Shown: positions 12,641-19,769 of the stretch, in pieces
Numbering within the stretch: the stretch's first letter is position 1
Layout of the letters: each line of letters begins with the position of its first letter
Assembly: GCA_005223185.1 (NCBI GenBank)
Contig: NJBN01000001.1
Span: 1-64,000 of the forward strand
Length of the DNA: 64,000 bases
Direction: 5' to 3'
Source of the DNA: a candidate division LCP-89 bacterium B3_LCP
Lineage (GTDB): Bacteria; Electryoneota; B3-LCP
Translations under genes and position numbers: made by a program
The notes under the pieces: model-generated
Told to the model about the DNA's origin: nothing
What the model saw: only the letters and a program-made list of their open reading frames with translations
Databases searched by the model: none

Positions 12641-12668
12641 AGGGCGGACACACAGGTCCGCCCTTACA
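12641..12668. repeat. GGGC-stem/CCCTTAC palindromic element (intergenic)
   Basis: AGGGCGGAC and GTCCGCCCT pair around ACACAG and are followed by TTAC. It has the same build as 16985-17010 and as the elements inside the three downstream coding sequences at 12825-12848, 14777-14800 and 17159-17183. Confidence 0.8.
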
Positions 12669-12689: not shown

Positions 12690-14558
12690 TCATTTCATCA
12701 ACACCATCTTTCCACTAGCCGTGAATTCACCAGCGGTCAGGTGGTAGATGTAGATGCCGGAAGGCAGGGTTGACCCATCGAAGGTAACTTCGTGTACACC
12801 AGCATCCCGCCAGCCGTTGATTAAGGACGAGGCATACCTCGTCCCTACAAGAACCGCACGGCCGGAGATATCGAACACATCCAGTTTGACCAGACTGGCA
12901 ACAGGCAGGGTGAAGGTGATGGTAGTGGCAGGATTGAAGGGATTGGGGTAAACTGAGTTAAGGGAGAAGGAGGAAGGCAAAAACGGATCTGATTTCGCCT
13001 CTTCGTTGTGGATTCTAATCCAATTATCCCAATCGGATACAATTGGGCCATCACCTGTAGAAAGCTTCTCAAATGGGAAGCTGTCGCTGCCCCAGATGAT
13101 ATCAGGATAGACACCTGCATAAGCATCGTAGGTGTATTCACCGGGGGGTGCATTGGCAGGAACGTTCTGCGTTCGGTCGCGATCTAAGGAACCACCACCG
13201 GGAAACGTAAAATTAAAAGGACCGAAAAGCGGACCGTGTTGCGTATTATCAGGCAGAGTGGCCATAATCCAAGCATCGAAAATCAGTTGCACTTGGTAGC
13301 TATTGGCAATAATAACGTTGAAGTTGAAACTACCGCCGGTGGCAGGGATTACAATCGGTGGGTTTTCCGGCGTAAGTGTAACCTCAATCTGCGGCGACGA
13401 TCCTCCAGCATCCAACTTCATTAAGTACATGTCACTATTAATGCCAGATTCCCAGACATATCCTCCCAGGATGTAACCACCATCAGCCGTCTGCTGGACG
13501 GAATAGCAAACAGTCTGATTGGCACGAGAAAAAGATTGCTGCCATTCCTGGTTTCCTAGATAGTCGGTCTTCACAAGGTATATACTCCCTTGACTACATG
13601 CACCGAATGACTTGGTCCACCCCCCTAAAATATAACCGCCGTCAACCGTCTGTTGGACGGAAAAGCAATAATCAATATTGCTTCCACCGAAGGTCTGTTG
13701 CCATACAAAGTTGCCCAGGGAGTCGGTCTTCACCAGGTACATATCTCTCATACCGGCACCATAGGAAGGAGTACTTCCGCCAAGTATGAAGCCGCCGTCA
13801 CCCGTCTGTTGGACGGAATAGCAATAATCCCAACCATCGCCGCCATAAGTCTGTTGCCATTCCTGGTTTCCCAATGAATCAGTTTTCACTAAGTACATAT
13901 CATAATTACCTGCGCCAAAGGACCAAGAATCTCCCCCCAGAATGTAGCCGCCGTCTATCGTCTTTTGGACGGAATTGCATCTATCACAATCGCTGCCGCC
14001 AAAGGTCGCATCCCATTCCATTATACCCAGTGAATTGGTCTTCACCAGGTACATATCATAGTCTCCTGCTCCGAATGAGAAGGTTTCTCCCCCCAGGATG
14101 TAGCCGCCGTCTGTTGTCTGTTGGACAGAATAGCAATACTCAGGACTGCTTCCACCGAAGGTCTGATCCCATTCAAGATTTCCCAATGAATCAGTCTTCA
14201 CCAGGTATATATCATGTCCTTCATTGACCTCGATATTCCCCCCCAGGATGTAGCCGCCATCAGAGGTCTGCTGCACGGAACGGCATTCTTCATATTCACC
14301 GCCACCGTAAGTTTGCTCCCATTCCAGGTTGCCCGGGGAATCAATCTTCACCAGGTACATGTCGTTAGAAATTGCTCCGAAGGACCCAGTACGTCCGCCT
14401 AAAATGTAACCATCATCTGTAGTCTGCTGGATGGAATAGCATCTTTCTCCTTGGTCGCCACCATAGGTCTGCGTCCACAGGGTGTCCGGGGGTTGGGCAA
14501 AGGAATATGCAACTGCCAATACTCCGCTGATTAGAAGTGATAAGATTGCTCTTAGCAT
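12690..14558 (-). CDS. Secreted seven-repeat (propeller-like) protein with C-terminal sorting domain
   Basis: A 622-residue exported protein of unknown function. The start is set at 14558 because GGAGG lies five bases before it; an in-frame ATG 12 bases upstream would put that site inside the gene. A signal peptide (1-21) is followed by seven repeats of about 52 residues, each with W.QT(Y/F)GG, C.SVQQT.DGGYILGG and MYLVKTDS.GN. Seven such units suggest a beta-propeller. Then come an Ig-like domain (VTLTPENPPIVIPATGGSF) shared with the next two genes, a linker, and a FlgD-like/type IX-style sorting domain (YPNPFNPATTITF, ending SGKMVLMK). A palindromic repeat encodes VGTRYASS in that last domain. 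It is probably displayed on or released from the cell surface. Confidence 0.75.
   Translation of the reverse strand: MLRAILSLLISGVLAVAYSFAQPPDTLWTQTYGGDQGERCYSIQQTTDDGYILGGRTGSFGAISNDMYLVKIDSPGNLEWEQTYGGGEYEECRSVQQTSDGGYILGGNIEVNEGHDIYLVKTDSLGNLEWDQTFGGSSPEYCYSVQQTTDGGYILGGETFSFGAGDYDMYLVKTNSLGIMEWDATFGGSDCDRCNSVQKTIDGGYILGGDSWSFGAGNYDMYLVKTDSLGNQEWQQTYGGDGWDYCYSVQQTGDGGFILGGSTPSYGAGMRDMYLVKTDSLGNFVWQQTFGGSNIDYCFSVQQTVDGGYILGGWTKSFGACSQGSIYLVKTDYLGNQEWQQSFSRANQTVCYSVQQTADGGYILGGYVWESGINSDMYLMKLDAGGSSPQIEVTLTPENPPIVIPATGGSFNFNVIIANSYQVQLIFDAWIMATLPDNTQHGPLFGPFNFTFPGGGSLDRDRTQNVPANAPPGEYTYDAYAGVYPDIIWGSDSFPFEKLSTGDGPIVSDWDNWIRIHNEEAKSDPFLPSSFSLNSVYPNPFNPATTITFTLPVASLVKLDVFDISGRAVLVGTRYASSLINGWRDAGVHEVTFDGSTLPSGIYIYHLTAGEFTASGKMVLMK
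12825..12848. repeat. Palindromic element inside a coding sequence (copy a)
   Basis: GGACGAGG-CATA-CCTCGTCC is a perfect 8-bp hairpin, followed by CTAC as in the intergenic copies. It lies in frame in the sorting domain of the surrounding gene and is translated as VGTRYASS, between GRAV and the LINGWRDAG strand. Confidence 0.85.
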
Positions 14559-14584
14559 GGTATCCTCCATGGTTGGTAGAATAT

Positions 14585-14633
14585 GGGGAGGTCGGACATT
14601 CTTGTCTGACAGGCAGGAATGCCTATCCTCCCC
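14585..14633. repeat. GGGGAGG...CCTCCCC inverted repeat between secreted-protein genes
   Basis: A long imperfect stem: GGGGAGG followed by CATTCTTGTCTG pairs with CAGGCAGGAATG followed by CCTCCCC. One half recurs at 273-300. It lies between two minus-strand genes and could also act on the transcript. Confidence 0.75.
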
Positions 14634-14641
14634 GATAATTA

Positions 14642-16867
14642 TTATTTCATCAACACCATTTTGCCGGTCGCGGTGTAATCACCTGCGGTCAGGGTGTAGA
14701 TGTATATTCCGGAAGCCAGATTCGATCCGTCGAAGGTAACTTCGTGCGCACCTGCATCCCGCCAGCTGTTGATCATGGGCGAGGCATGCCTCGCCCCTAC
14801 AGGAACCGTTCTACCGTTGATATCGAACACATTCAGTTCAACCCAACTCGCAACTCGCAACTCGAAACTAATAACTGCCGTTGGGTTGAAGGGATTGGGG
14901 TAAACCTGTACCAGATCGTAGGACGATGGAGTGCTCAGTCCGACGATTTCCTCTTCAAATCCATCGAAATTCGTCCACCATTGGGTATAGCTTCCACCAC
15001 CGAAATCCGTTGCCGATTTACTGAAGCCGAAACTCTCAGATGACCAGACATCGGAAGGATAGATGCCCACGTAGGCGTTGTAGCTGTAATCTCCGGATGG
15101 CGCATTAGCGGGTACGGCCTGGGTCTTGACGCGCGAAATCGCACCGGTCGGAGCGGCAAGGGAGACATTGATGACGGGACCGAAAATCGAGGAATTGGGT
15201 AAAGTCACATCAATCCAGACGCTGCAGCCGATGGGAACGGCTTCGTTATTCACCAAACCTATAGTGTAATCGAAACTGCCCCCAACCGCGGGGATGACGA
15301 TGGGCGGATTTACCGGTTCTAAGGTAACCTGAACATCCGGCACTCCGTTTATAATGGTGAACGGTGCTGATGTGATAACATCTGCGAATGCCCAGCCATG
15401 AAATACTGTTAAACGCAGGTAGCAGTCTGTCGAAGTTTCGACCTCCGAGACGGTCCATTGGTGGCGCCCGTTGGCGGGCAGGTCATCCGCGATGACCGTC
15501 CAGGGACCGGTAGCTCCGGTGGTGGAAAGCTCAATTTTCACATCTGTTACTACACCTGTATCAGGTAGAGCGGTTAAGTAATCGATGAAGCGTACCGATC
15601 CACTCTTGAACAGTTCCCCACCTTTGGGATACATTGGCTTGATGCTAAGTGCTGTGGCTACTGACGTTTCTTTATAGAAACGCAGATGGTTGTAACTGCT
15701 GATCCAGCCGCCTTCGTCGGTCAAATGCACGATGTCCGGGTAACCGTTGTGATCGGCATCGCCGCCCACGCGGAATGCTTCGAAATCGCAATCCGGATCG
15801 TTCTCAATAATGTAGGTGGCAGCACCCGTCCAGTTTCCGGTTCCATCTCCGGTCCACACGGTGACGCGACCGTCACCTCCAGCAGCCACGTCACAATATC
15901 CGTCGGCGTTCATATCGCACAGTTGCGTCATCCCATAACCGCCGGTTGTGGGCAAGTTGCCGGTATAATCAACCCACTGTGTGGACGATTCATCGAATAC
16001 CCAGACTTTTACAGCACCACTGGACGTGAAAGCCAGATCCATACCGCCGTCGTTATCCACGTCTCCCATAGAAGGTCCGGTATGACCTAACGTGCCTCCA
16101 GATGGCAGGTTGTAATCCGCCGGGTAGAACTGACCGTTACCGTAGCCGAAGAAAACCGTGCCGCTCTGGTAAGCTGTGGCTATGTCCAAATTCCCATCCT
16201 TATTGATATCACCGAAGAATACGTGCATCCCGCAGTTGGGGCCTGGAGTTACCGCCTGGCTGTGAGTCCAGGTGCCATCTTCATTATTCAGGTAGATTTG
16301 AAGAGGGTTGCCGGAGCCGAAAGACGTTGCCGCTATGTCAAGGTCGCCGTCGTTGTCCACGTCGCCGAAGTCTGTGGCGAACATGCCGTAGTCTTCACCC
16401 TGACTGGCTAAACCGTCATCCCAGGGCGTCCAATTCTGACCGGTGCCGTCACCAATAGCAACTTCTATCAACTGGTCGCCGAAATCATTTCCGGAATAGT
16501 TGTGGTGCATGGCATAGCCCACGTCTTGATGCCCATCATCGTTGACGTCACCCACGCAGATTCCGCCGTAGCCGAAGTTCCCATTCATGTAAACCTGCCA
16601 GCGACCATCACCATCACCGAAGTAAACCATGATCCCATGCTCATCGGTATTGATGTAGGGCGAGCCGTGATCACCAATTGAAATCAGGTCGATATTACCA
16701 TCCTGGTCTATATCAGCCATCTCTATTTCGGAACGGCCGCCTTCCCACTGAGGAAATCCCAGTCCCCCGGAATATTCCGTGTATTCCAGTGCGATTGAAT
16801 CATCGAGTATCAGACCTGTACATGCAATTAAGGTACACAGTAGAGTGTTTAACGGTAGATTACGCAT
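14642..16867 (-). CDS. Secreted FG-GAP/VCBS repeat protein with C-terminal sorting domain
   Basis: A 741-residue exported protein of unknown ligand. GGAGG precedes the ATG, and residues 1-25 are a signal peptide. Residues 30-400 contain FG-GAP/VCBS repeats with DxDxDG-type calcium loops (DIDQDGNIDL, DVNDDGHQDV, DVDNDGDLDI, DINKDGNLDI, DVDNDGGMDL), which usually build an integrin-like propeller. A fibronectin/Ig-like stretch follows (about 405-495). Then come the domain shared with its neighbours (VTLEPVNPPIVIPAVGGSF, about 500-610) and the YPNPFNPTAVISF sorting domain ending in GKMVLMK. A perfect 20-bp palindrome in the sorting domain is translated as VGARHASP. Likely surface-exposed or secreted. 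Confidence 0.8.
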   Translation of the reverse strand: MRNLPLNTLLCTLIACTGLILDDSIALEYTEYSGGLGFPQWEGGRSEIEMADIDQDGNIDLISIGDHGSPYINTDEHGIMVYFGDGDGRWQVYMNGNFGYGGICVGDVNDDGHQDVGYAMHHNYSGNDFGDQLIEVAIGDGTGQNWTPWDDGLASQGEDYGMFATDFGDVDNDGDLDIAATSFGSGNPLQIYLNNEDGTWTHSQAVTPGPNCGMHVFFGDINKDGNLDIATAYQSGTVFFGYGNGQFYPADYNLPSGGTLGHTGPSMGDVDNDGGMDLAFTSSGAVKVWVFDESSTQWVDYTGNLPTTGGYGMTQLCDMNADGYCDVAAGGDGRVTVWTGDGTGNWTGAATYIIENDPDCDFEAFRVGGDADHNGYPDIVHLTDEGGWISSYNHLRFYKETSVATALSIKPMYPKGGELFKSGSVRFIDYLTALPDTGVVTDVKIELSTTGATGPWTVIADDLPANGRHQWTVSEVETSTDCYLRLTVFHGWAFADVITSAPFTIINGVPDVQVTLEPVNPPIVIPAVGGSFDYTIGLVNNEAVPIGCSVWIDVTLPNSSIFGPVINVSLAAPTGAISRVKTQAVPANAPSGDYSYNAYVGIYPSDVWSSESFGFSKSATDFGGGSYTQWWTNFDGFEEEIVGLSTPSSYDLVQVYPNPFNPTAVISFELRVASWVELNVFDINGRTVPVGARHASPMINSWRDAGAHEVTFDGSNLASGIYIYTLTAGDYTATGKMVLMK
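14777..14800. repeat. Palindromic element inside a coding sequence (copy b)
   Basis: GGGCGAGGCATGCCTCGCCC is a perfect 20-bp palindrome, followed by CTAC. It lies in frame in the sorting domain and is translated as VGARHASP, at the same position and in the same frame as copy a. Confidence 0.88.
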
Positions 16868-16984
16868 TGCTTCCTCCGAACTACCCTAAATTGGTGGTTA
16901 TGGTTAGTGATTCTAATAATATACACAATATTTTTGAATTTGTCAAGTGGTTTATTTTTTTGTGGGAAAATTGTAATAGAAAAA

Positions 16985-17010
16985 GGGCAGACACACAGGT
17001 CTGCCCCTAC
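16985..17010. repeat. GGGC-stem/CCCCTAC palindromic element (intergenic)
   Basis: GGGCAGAC and GTCTGCCC pair around ACACAG, followed by CCTAC. It matches the element at 12641-12668 and lies just downstream of the C25 protease gene. Confidence 0.82.
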
Positions 17011-17033
17011 AACCATTAGTTATCATTATGCTG

Positions 17034-19769
17034 CTATTTCATCAGTACCATTTTACCCGTTGTGGTAAATTCTCCAGCAGTCAAGTGGTAGATGTAAATA
17101 CCAGAAGCAAGATTAGAACCATCGAAGGTGATCTGGTGAGTGCCGGCATTATATTGACGGGTCGACACAAGGTTGACCCCTACGCGGCGACCATTTATAT
17201 CGAAAACATCCAGTTTCACCCAGTTTGCAACTGGCAATTGAAAACTGATAACTGTCGAAGGGTTGAACGGGTTGGGGTAATTACCGATCAAAGCATAATC
17301 AGTTGGATTATCTTCTTCTGAGAGGTATAACCATTCATCAAACGGTTCACCATCATTCACCCAGTTGTCGATCAGGCTTGAACCATCACCAGCAGTTAAC
17401 TTCTCAAAGGTAAAACTATCCAACGATGTATCTGTACCAGCAACTGCGTAGGCATTGAAAGAGTAAACCCCAGCCGGAGCTCCACCGGGAACGTTTTGCA
17501 TACGGTCTCGATCTACCGTCCCACCTTCGGCAAGATAGAGGGCAATCGGTCCGATAACCGGACCGTAGATCGATCCGTTTGGCATGGTTATATCGCACCA
17601 AAGGTTGAAGAAAATGCCGGCAGGTTCATTATTAATGGCTTCTATGTTGTAATCGAAGCTTCCTCCGGTGGCGGGGATCTGAATCAGTGAGCTTACCGGT
17701 GTTAAAACTACACTGACTGGCGGTATCGGTTCAGTTATATCAACCGTCCCTGCATAGGGCAGCATATCGTGAGCCGTTATCATGAGATCTAATTGACCTG
17801 ATTGCTGCAGAGGTTCAGAAAAGAATACTGTGGCTATACCTGAAGCGTTCGAAGATCCTTGTCCCAGTACGACGTTATCCTGAGAAAGAGTAACTAACGC
17901 GCCTGCCATACCGATATCGCTTACCTCGAACAATATGGACCCTTGTACAATTTCTGGGTCATAGGTCGGAGTAAACACTCCCGGCACCGCCGTCCATATG
18001 TCCAATGTGGGATCACCTAAGAGGTTCAGCTCGTAAAAACACCAGCGCAAGTAGTTATCGAAGAACGTTGCCGACACGTTATCCGTTTTCGAGTCGTGAT
18101 TCGCTTTGCCAATAACGGTGATGTTTTCACCATAAATCGCATCCCCAAATTGCCTGTGGAAACGCTGAGATGGACCATCGGTAGTATAGAATGCCCCCCA
18201 TCCGAAACGGCTGTTACCTATAAATGCCACGGCAGCGTGAGCAATCTTGGTGAATTTTTCCATTATGCAATCGGAACTGTTGTGTTCGAAAGCACCAGCG
18301 TGGCATCCCTGGCTGTATCCTATGAAGAAATTGTGATTGACGCCGTTGTTGGTGAAGTTATTATCGGTTATCTGGGAATTGTAGAACTTGAAATTATAAT
18401 TCCAGCTGGCGTGCCCCAGGTGATGCACCACGTTCGGTCCTGAATTTAGAAGCGGCAGCAGATTACTCATACCTGACCAACTGGTTCCGGGATATTCATA
18501 CAGGGAATCCACCGCTATGTTTTCGGCAATTCCAACTGTGCTGTAACCCCAATTAGTCGATCCCAGGTGAATCTCCTGCATGTATTCCCATCCCCAGCTA
18601 TCCCATCCCAGATCTTCTCCAAGCATGAGGGTAGTAACTACTTCATCTACTACAGGATCAGTCTGGTACATCAGGGATTTATTCACAACATTGGTAACTT
18701 CACCAGCATCAGCACAACTTCTACCGATGAAAACGTCCGCATACAGGTCTTCTTCACCCGGTTCGCCCCAGTGGCTGTCTCCATCGTTATTCCAGTTACC
18801 ATCCAGACCGGCATAGTAGAGATCGCTGGGGATATCTTCCGTGTACGTTCCCGCCTGCACCCACAATTCGCGGCAATCGATGTAATCAACGTCGCCACAG
18901 AGGAAAACGTAAGATATACCGTTATTGGAATAATACTCGATGATGCAATTGCGGATCTTCTCCTGGAAATCATCACCGGGGAAATTGATGTAAATGTCTT
19001 CCACTGTTTCCACAGTAGTGCGGATACCGCTGCGGTTCTTATAGTCGATGAATTCCTGGTAATCGTTCACTAATGCAGATCCGGTTATAACCAACAAGTT
19101 CCAGAAATCCGTATCTAATTGAGTTTCAGGACCATAGGTCGCTAACATTTCCGGATTCTGGATTAACCCGGCAACGCGTTCCCGTACGGAAGGATTCACT
19201 TTTAGCATCTGCGCGTGTGCAGTAATTGATTTTTGTGTCGGCTGACTTTTCACCGTAACTTCGATCCAGGGGTAGTAGGACAACTCTCCGGAAAGCGGTC
19301 TATAAATAACCGGGCAAACCAGAGTATTAGCTATGGAATGTCCACAGAGAAAACCTGTGTGCACTTCAAAAACGGCAGAAGCGGGGAAATGATCATCACT
19401 GCTGTAGATTGCTGCGTCAGGTGATGTAGGCTGATGTGAAGACCTTGTAGAAAGTGGATATGGCTGGTGGCGGTAGGCAATCCGGTATCCATCACCAAGG
19501 GCAACCGGTTCTGCAGTTTCGATAGTTATGGATACTGCTTCTTCTCCCGGTGTTAACAGTAATGCTATCTGCGCATGAGGCAGCAACGGTGAACCAACCA
19601 GCCCCCAATTAGGAACGCTTTCCATCACCACCATTGCCTGTCCGTCGATGATTTCAACTGTCGGTTGTTCGAATGTATAGGTGTGTGTAGTTACACCTGA
19701 AGCAGCTATCGATGCTGCCAGAGTAATTGTTGCCATCACAGAAATTATCAAATTCAAGCGTCCCATCAT
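17034..19769 (-). CDS. Gingipain-type C25 cysteine protease with C-terminal sorting domain
   Basis: A 911-residue secreted protease. GGGAG precedes the ATG, and residues 1-23 are a signal peptide. A propeptide region runs to about 210. The C25 catalytic domain (about 220-600) has the expected dyad, His453 in VVHHLGHAS and Cys489 in GYSQGCHAG, and the family segment YVFLCGDVDYI. It is followed by an Ig-like segment, the domain shared with the two neighbouring genes (VVLTPVSSLIQIPATGGSF) and the YPNPFNPSTVISF sorting domain ending in GKMVLMK. Gingipain relatives cut proteins outside the cell and are usually type IX secretion cargo. Specificity cannot be read here. A palindromic element lies in the sorting domain (17159-17183). 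Confidence 0.87.
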   Translation of the reverse strand: MMGRLNLIISVMATITLAASIAASGVTTHTYTFEQPTVEIIDGQAMVVMESVPNWGLVGSPLLPHAQIALLLTPGEEAVSITIETAEPVALGDGYRIAYRHQPYPLSTRSSHQPTSPDAAIYSSDDHFPASAVFEVHTGFLCGHSIANTLVCPVIYRPLSGELSYYPWIEVTVKSQPTQKSITAHAQMLKVNPSVRERVAGLIQNPEMLATYGPETQLDTDFWNLLVITGSALVNDYQEFIDYKNRSGIRTTVETVEDIYINFPGDDFQEKIRNCIIEYYSNNGISYVFLCGDVDYIDCRELWVQAGTYTEDIPSDLYYAGLDGNWNNDGDSHWGEPGEEDLYADVFIGRSCADAGEVTNVVNKSLMYQTDPVVDEVVTTLMLGEDLGWDSWGWEYMQEIHLGSTNWGYSTVGIAENIAVDSLYEYPGTSWSGMSNLLPLLNSGPNVVHHLGHASWNYNFKFYNSQITDNNFTNNGVNHNFFIGYSQGCHAGAFEHNSSDCIMEKFTKIAHAAVAFIGNSRFGWGAFYTTDGPSQRFHRQFGDAIYGENITVIGKANHDSKTDNVSATFFDNYLRWCFYELNLLGDPTLDIWTAVPGVFTPTYDPEIVQGSILFEVSDIGMAGALVTLSQDNVVLGQGSSNASGIATVFFSEPLQQSGQLDLMITAHDMLPYAGTVDITEPIPPVSVVLTPVSSLIQIPATGGSFDYNIEAINNEPAGIFFNLWCDITMPNGSIYGPVIGPIALYLAEGGTVDRDRMQNVPGGAPAGVYSFNAYAVAGTDTSLDSFTFEKLTAGDGSSLIDNWVNDGEPFDEWLYLSEEDNPTDYALIGNYPNPFNPSTVISFQLPVANWVKLDVFDINGRRVGVNLVSTRQYNAGTHQITFDGSNLASGIYIYHLTAGEFTTTGKMVLMK
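17159..17183. repeat. Palindromic element inside a coding sequence (copy c)
   Basis: GGGTCGAC-ACAAG-GTTGACCC (one mismatch in the stem, G-U in RNA) followed by CTAC. It is translated as VGVNLVSTR in the sorting domain of the C25 protease gene, again beginning with codons GTA GGG. Confidence 0.75.

Follow-up and report, generated by a model that had tools for sequence, protein, structure and literature searches.

How do short palindromes come to be read as protein at one and the same place in three consecutive genes? The window examined here, 64,000 nt of contig NJBN01000001.1 from the candidate division LCP-89 bacterium B3_LCP, holds five palindromic elements, three within genes and two between them, all on the minus strand and all where the initial annotation had put them. 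We followed these elements through 2.39 Mb of the 3.79 Mb genome, comprising contigs C7, C16 and C18 whole and chosen stretches besides. Element classes, whose boundaries were drawn by hand, are called R1 to R9.

The three in-gene elements do lie in the C-terminal sorting domains of consecutive genes, as had been proposed, and the three reading frames all end in a Por_Secre_tail / TIGR04183 domain above curated cut-offs (TIGR04183 33.7–40.0 bits, cut-off 23; PF18962 32.3–40.7 bits, cut-off 27). The gene at 12690–14570 (minus strand) encodes delta-60/SBBP-like repeats followed by a sorting domain at about 12690–12950 (PF18962 32.3 bits, TIGR04183 38.4 bits); seven tandem repeats of ~52 residues, delta-60/SBBP-like and with a 156-nt period, occupy 13440–14441. 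The gene at 14642–16867 (minus strand) is that of an FG-GAP repeat protein (PF13517, PF18962), and the one at 17034–19769 (minus strand) encodes a C25 peptidase (PF01364 162.6 bits, PF18962 40.7 bits). All three elements open in frame with the codons GTA GGG. The R3 element GTAGGGACGAGGTATGCCTCGTCC at 12825–12848 (minus strand) is read VGTRYASS after GRAVL; against the R3 consensus it has one stem pair altered on both sides, from G-C to A-T, and it folds well as RNA (z = −5.1). At 14777–14800 (minus strand) the exact R3 consensus, GTAGGGGCGAGGCATGCCTCGCCC, is read VGARHASP after GRTVP. The third element, the R1 variant GTAGGGGTCAACCTTGTGTCGACCC at 17159–17183 (minus strand), is read VGVNLVST(R), with its GTA codon serving as the V of GRxV; a stem mismatch breaks its hairpin, which folds no better than shuffles (z = −0.11), whereas the other four window hairpins fold clearly better (z −2.7 to −5.3). 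The two window R3 copies have their junction two codons later than the V of GRxV. Their closest empty sites are in paralogues of 0.67–0.74 flank identity, and against the nearest of these about 27 nt replace 6 nt, which lengthens the protein by seven residues net.

An AlphaFold2 model of the sorting domain of the 14642–16867 gene, computed with 29 relatives, gives a predicted beta sandwich (mean pLDDT 83, pTM 0.70), in which the element residues, 35–42 of the domain, form a predicted loop; it lies where the second long strand is joined to the strands that follow, a part modelled with less certainty (block pLDDT 70–79). A PDB fold search with the domain returned generic Ig-like folds, all at E above 0.001, one of them the T9SS NucA substrate chain 8glk_D; the sequence search of the PDB gave a single marginal T9SS match (8glj_D, E 0.66), and an Rfam search of the window region gave no match.

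The two intergenic copies have another character. The R2-type element at 12641–12668 (minus strand), with a GTAAGG head, is about 20–50 nt downstream of the 12690–14570 gene, and the R2 element GTAGGGGCAGACCTGTGTGTCTGCCC at 16985–17010 (minus strand), followed by TTTTT, is 24 nt downstream of the 17034–19769 gene. In both, a T-rich tail follows the hairpin, and both score as terminator-like. Genome-wide, R2 copies are found about 24 nt past stop codons, and among copies outside the domain at least four T occur in the next 8 nt for 23/26 of R2 and 15/25 of R4; REPs of these two classes thus look like intrinsic terminators. The hairpin that the initial annotation took to be shared by all five copies is therefore reduced to a shared GTAGGG head and a palindromic form, since the in-gene copies (R3, R3, R1) and the intergenic copies (R2) belong to classes with different arms; a single element behind all the copies was not borne out.

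We found at least nine hairpin classes in the genome, with a common GTAG head (mostly GTAGGG) and differing arms: R1 (GTAGGGGTCGRYCTTGYRYCGACCC), R2 (GTAGGGGCRGACCTSTGTGTCYGCCC), R3 (the consensus given above), R4 (GTAGGGYGGGGGTGYTTCCCCCRCC), R5 (inverted pairs such as GTAGGGGCAAGCCTCTGTGCTTGCCC with the reverse of GTAGGGGTAGCCCTCTGTGGCTACCC), R6 (GTAGGGGCGTTTCGTGAAACGCCC), R7 (beginning GTAGGGGCGGGTTT), R8 (GTAGTCGGGGTCGCCCCTGACCCCGAC) and R9 (GTAGCGCGGGGGCTTGCCCCCGC). GTAGGG hairpins of score 7 or more number 57 in contigs C7, C16 and C18 (1.43 Mb), against 0–3 in order-2 Markov sequence and 2 in reversed sequence. All nine classes have a GTAGGG or GTAG head and a hairpin, in keeping with GTAG-type REPs, in which the tetranucleotide ends an imperfect palindrome of 20–40 nt. 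Such REPs are numerous, mostly intergenic and often close behind stop codons; R2, R4, R8 and R9 are mostly intergenic here, R2 about 24 nt past stops, while R1 and R3 are mostly in the domain, which is unusual. The elements are GTAG-type REPs of several classes.

The transposase genes of the genome bear on this assignment. Among ten Y1-transposase matches, one RAYT on C18 (160 aa; 97 bits to NF047646, cut-off 80) stands between inverted copies of R1; another on C4 (158 aa, 104.5 bits) is flanked by R9 at either end, and a shortened RAYT on C18 (78.4 bits, just under the cut-off) has R8 on both sides. Because of these flanking RAYT genes, a REPtron structure, R1, R8 and R9 are REPs in the sense of Di Nocera et al. 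(2013; PMC3733652). No RAYT flanked by R2 to R7 was found among the RAYT matches of the genome, and the remaining classes are assigned as REPs by anatomy. The R1-flanked RAYT arrangement recurs in a second genus. Adjacent REP pairs in sorting domains run GTAG...CTAC in 14/14 cases, matching the ends of the RAYT genes. Most likely the RAYTs of this genome mobilise the REPs. One RAYT-like Y1 transposase gene, at C14:126153–126782 (minus strand), itself carries an R7 (VGAGFAEGTLKGKPAPT) in frame, between the HUH motif and the next conserved segment.

About 300 matches to T9SS-type sorting domains occur in the 2.39 Mb read, a large set of candidate secreted proteins, and type IX secretion is plausible because the genome encodes both SprA (819 bits, in one frame) and PorU (744 bits). 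Within these domains we counted 22 copies of R1, 11 of R3, 14 of R5, 2 of R6, 4 of R7 and 12 of R8. Statements of frequency apply to C7, C16 and C18, because the other stretches were chosen for domain or R1 matches and are biased: on these three contigs 33 of ~107 class-matched copies fall within sorting domains, although loop DNA makes up 0.8% of these contigs. In other coding sequence read, matches within reading frames are almost absent, and those left over are either N-terminal extensions, probably upstream of the true starts, or in one RAYT-like gene.

Three sites are used. Most of the copies are in the first loop, directly after GRxV, which carries a REP in 49 of 237 parsed domains and lacks one in 188. 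The second loop, before GKMVLMK, receives R8 in reverse (read SGSGATPT). The third site is the linker just before NPFN, with reverse R4 or R9 at the same position in paralogues (GGGSTPALQ, GGGQAPALP), and one R6-like copy in the linker before the domain; the reverse copies are at C16:205469, C15:58999, C7:592254, C18:3912, C4:241711, C4:245061 and C10:1450. This linker before NPFNP is a second instance of class exchange at one site. Some R1 copies in the first loop are split by a further short insert (VGVACPFGGLAPTR, GSAQDPRGGRRPLR), at C7:474246, C7:477768, C13:35784, C10:3522 and C1:173087.

The initial annotation had also held that sorting domains without the element are shorter and that the element is always read in the frame beginning GTA GGG (VGTRYASS, VGARHASP, VGVNLVST), and both points extend beyond the window. 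From GR to FDG, domains without the element have a modal length of 18 residues, against 20–33 in the bearers. All forward copies (36/36) are in frame starting at codon GTA, which supplies the V of GRxV in R1, R5, R6, R7 and part of R3; of the alternative frames, the one through TAG is closed, and the remaining one is open in R1, R3, R5 and R7 and never used. Both orientations occur in sorting domains, the reverse copies beginning directly past the V of GRxV (GSAQDRPL) or in another frame (GRRKTDPY, SGSGATPT). Genome-wide, then, the extra residues derive from hairpins, in frame and at one structural place, with many copies in one loop of an otherwise shorter domain, much as the three window genes had suggested. 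The extent could not be seen from the window alone: dozens of genes and many classes are involved, on both strands, at three sites of the domain and in six genera.

The pattern is shared by relatives. Among the genomes sampled, R1 occurs in the own genus and in four others of the same family, and was not found in the other sampled families of the phylum; R3 occurs in the own genus and three others, including one without R1. Each of the six genera sampled in the family (the own one and five more) has R1 or R3 inside sorting domains, and in the relatives the in-domain copies are many, encode other peptides and lie in both orientations. Since these relatives are separately assembled MAGs (among them candidate division LCP-89 bacterium Meg19_1012_Bin_459, bacterium Modern_marine.mb.49 and Calditrichaeota bacterium DeMMO3_2), an assembly artefact is argued against. 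In two genomes (G001 and G004) the in-domain copies agree with the REP variant found in that genome, in a third (G005) not clearly, so we put no weight on this agreement. R1 was also seen in unrelated bins (Clostridium, Roizmanbacteria and others), in none of them within a recognised sorting domain. In the relative's contig JALGVT010000001.1 (L238, 2250–2600), what looks like the remains of a sorting domain, with no NPFNP, bears an R3+R1 pair whose R3 is read in a frame that intact genes do not use; this is possibly a decayed gene.

What history lies behind these copies was read from a tree of the 237 domains, built with the loop left out and resting on about 70 residues. On it, REP presence changes 5 times, compared with a mean of 45 after shuffling, so that first-loop REPs mark essentially one lineage, the one with a VFDINGR-type strand. 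Part of the copy number is therefore due to gene duplication and not insertion. Among the 49 bearers the class of REP turns over fast: it changes 24 times (28.8 ± 1.0 after shuffling), and only 19 of the 49 share a class with the domain closest to them in flank identity. Five tandem genes at C7:155–162 kb, for example, have near-identical domains with the inserts R6, R6, R3+R8, R8 and R7. At third codon positions the elements of R1, R5 and R8 diverge by 0.04–0.11 and their flanks by 0.49–0.58. At synonymous sites the elements are at least five times less divergent than the flanks, and in every one of the 105 pairs of forward R1 copies the element has diverged less than the flank. The same R1 variants are found in domain-borne and other copies. 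Such low divergence is what recent arrival or homogenisation would give; it could also stem from selection on the DNA hairpin or from gene conversion. We reject an ancestral origin of the extra residues in view of the class diversity and the synonymous divergence.

We consider the best explanation to be that GTAG-type REPs, mobilised by RAYTs, have inserted recurrently into sorting-domain loops and are tolerated there (probability roughly three in four). REPs would have entered surface loops of the sorting domain of type IX secretion substrates again and again, on both strands and without breaking the frame, the main target being the loop after GRxV, and would stay there because the loop can absorb a change of between a few and ~15 residues, insertions elsewhere in coding sequence being lost. 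One sorting-domain lineage may have had its loop occupied early and been amplified across the genome, other REPs having later displaced or joined the resident one many times over. The near restriction of REPs to a single clade could also come from duplication and conversion alone: a small number of old insertions would have been copied along with their sorting-domain genes, none occurring at present. Identical elements in tandem duplicates (C16:92–108 kb, C7:590–592 kb) speak for such copying, and the domains C7_156717 and C7_158058, which have 75 identical nt in the right flank and different inserts, suggest local conversion. We nevertheless find this account improbable: the first loop holds at least six classes, in both orientations, in single and paired forms and with differing junctions, the elements are far less diverged at third positions than their flanks, and near neighbours usually differ in class. 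A more tentative form of the insertion account, which we think possible and on balance doubtful, makes the loop a landing pad, in which the resident REP is itself the target where RAYTs or recombination swap one REP for another, the shared GTAGGGG head keeping the frame during the exchange. It would fit the constancy of the GTA junction, the exchange of right halves (R3 with R8 or R1) and the turnover within a lineage bearing REPs almost throughout, and if it were true an exposed loop of dozens of secreted proteins would be continually diversified.

The loops coded by REPs might also benefit the host. Positive selection on them, for instance through recognition or diversification of secreted proteins, might account for the strong confinement to one domain, the single frame of all forward copies and the near absence of REP-free members from the bearer lineage. 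The peptides vary widely, however (VGVGLAPT, VGARHASP, GSAQDRPL, SGSGATPT, VGASLCAC), and those 188 domains of the same genome do without a REP in the first loop, so we take tolerance rather than benefit to be the likelier state and selection for the peptides to be quite unlikely. Still less do we favour a role for the hairpins as RNA or DNA, whether as attenuators, through mRNA stability or as recombination sites, with the reading frame incidental. The T-rich tails of R2 and R4, and the paired change by which the R3 at 12825–12848 keeps its pairing, agree with such a role; the in-gene copies, on the other hand, stand ahead of the stop codon without T tails, one window copy has no stable stem, and the use of frame is strict.

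Such a genome is a replicated natural experiment in how selfish DNA turns into protein, with ~300 copies of a domain, several REP families having their own transposases, and dozens of in-frame insertions at few loops. Comparing copies inside this one genome, and between the six genera, makes insertion preference, tolerance and possible benefit testable. In this lineage the 'extragenic' of REP fails.

The initial annotation compared the elements with Rickettsia palindromic elements (RPEs), and for what they do this is fair: both are palindromes in frame within protein-coding genes and tolerated by the protein. RPEs occupy varied genes, and we know of no transposase for them. Kinship with RPEs is scarcely credible for the elements described here, whose GTAG head, size of 24–27 nt, RAYT-flanking copies and intergenic terminator-like copies are those of GTAG-type REPs. 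The host domain agrees with the T9SS type A sorting domain (TIGR04183 / PF18962) in its scores and in the presence of SprA and PorU, and departs from the usual form in having its first loop extended or replaced by REP-coded residues. QMITE1 and QMITE2 of Coxiella burnetii, in-frame MITEs for which no locational preference was reported among insertions in annotated hypothetical proteins (PMC5896051), are likewise small non-autonomous elements that add residues to proteins, and are of a different type. In-frame carriage alone is not new, because intragenic GTAG REPs have been published in several species, where they are spread among unrelated genes, repair genes being numerous among these, and where a REP lies at about the same site of recB in two Xanthomonas species (Di Nocera et al., 2013; PMC3733652). 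Our search of the literature, which was incomplete, turned up no description of REPs gathered in a single protein domain or in T9SS sorting domains; judged by it, the recurrent occupation of one loop of one secretion domain by many classes is new. The elements resemble those GTAG REPs in head, short hairpin, inverted pairs, REP-flanked RAYT genes and position past stop codons, and differ from them in their confinement to one C-terminal domain, where many classes exchange at one loop in dozens of paralogues.
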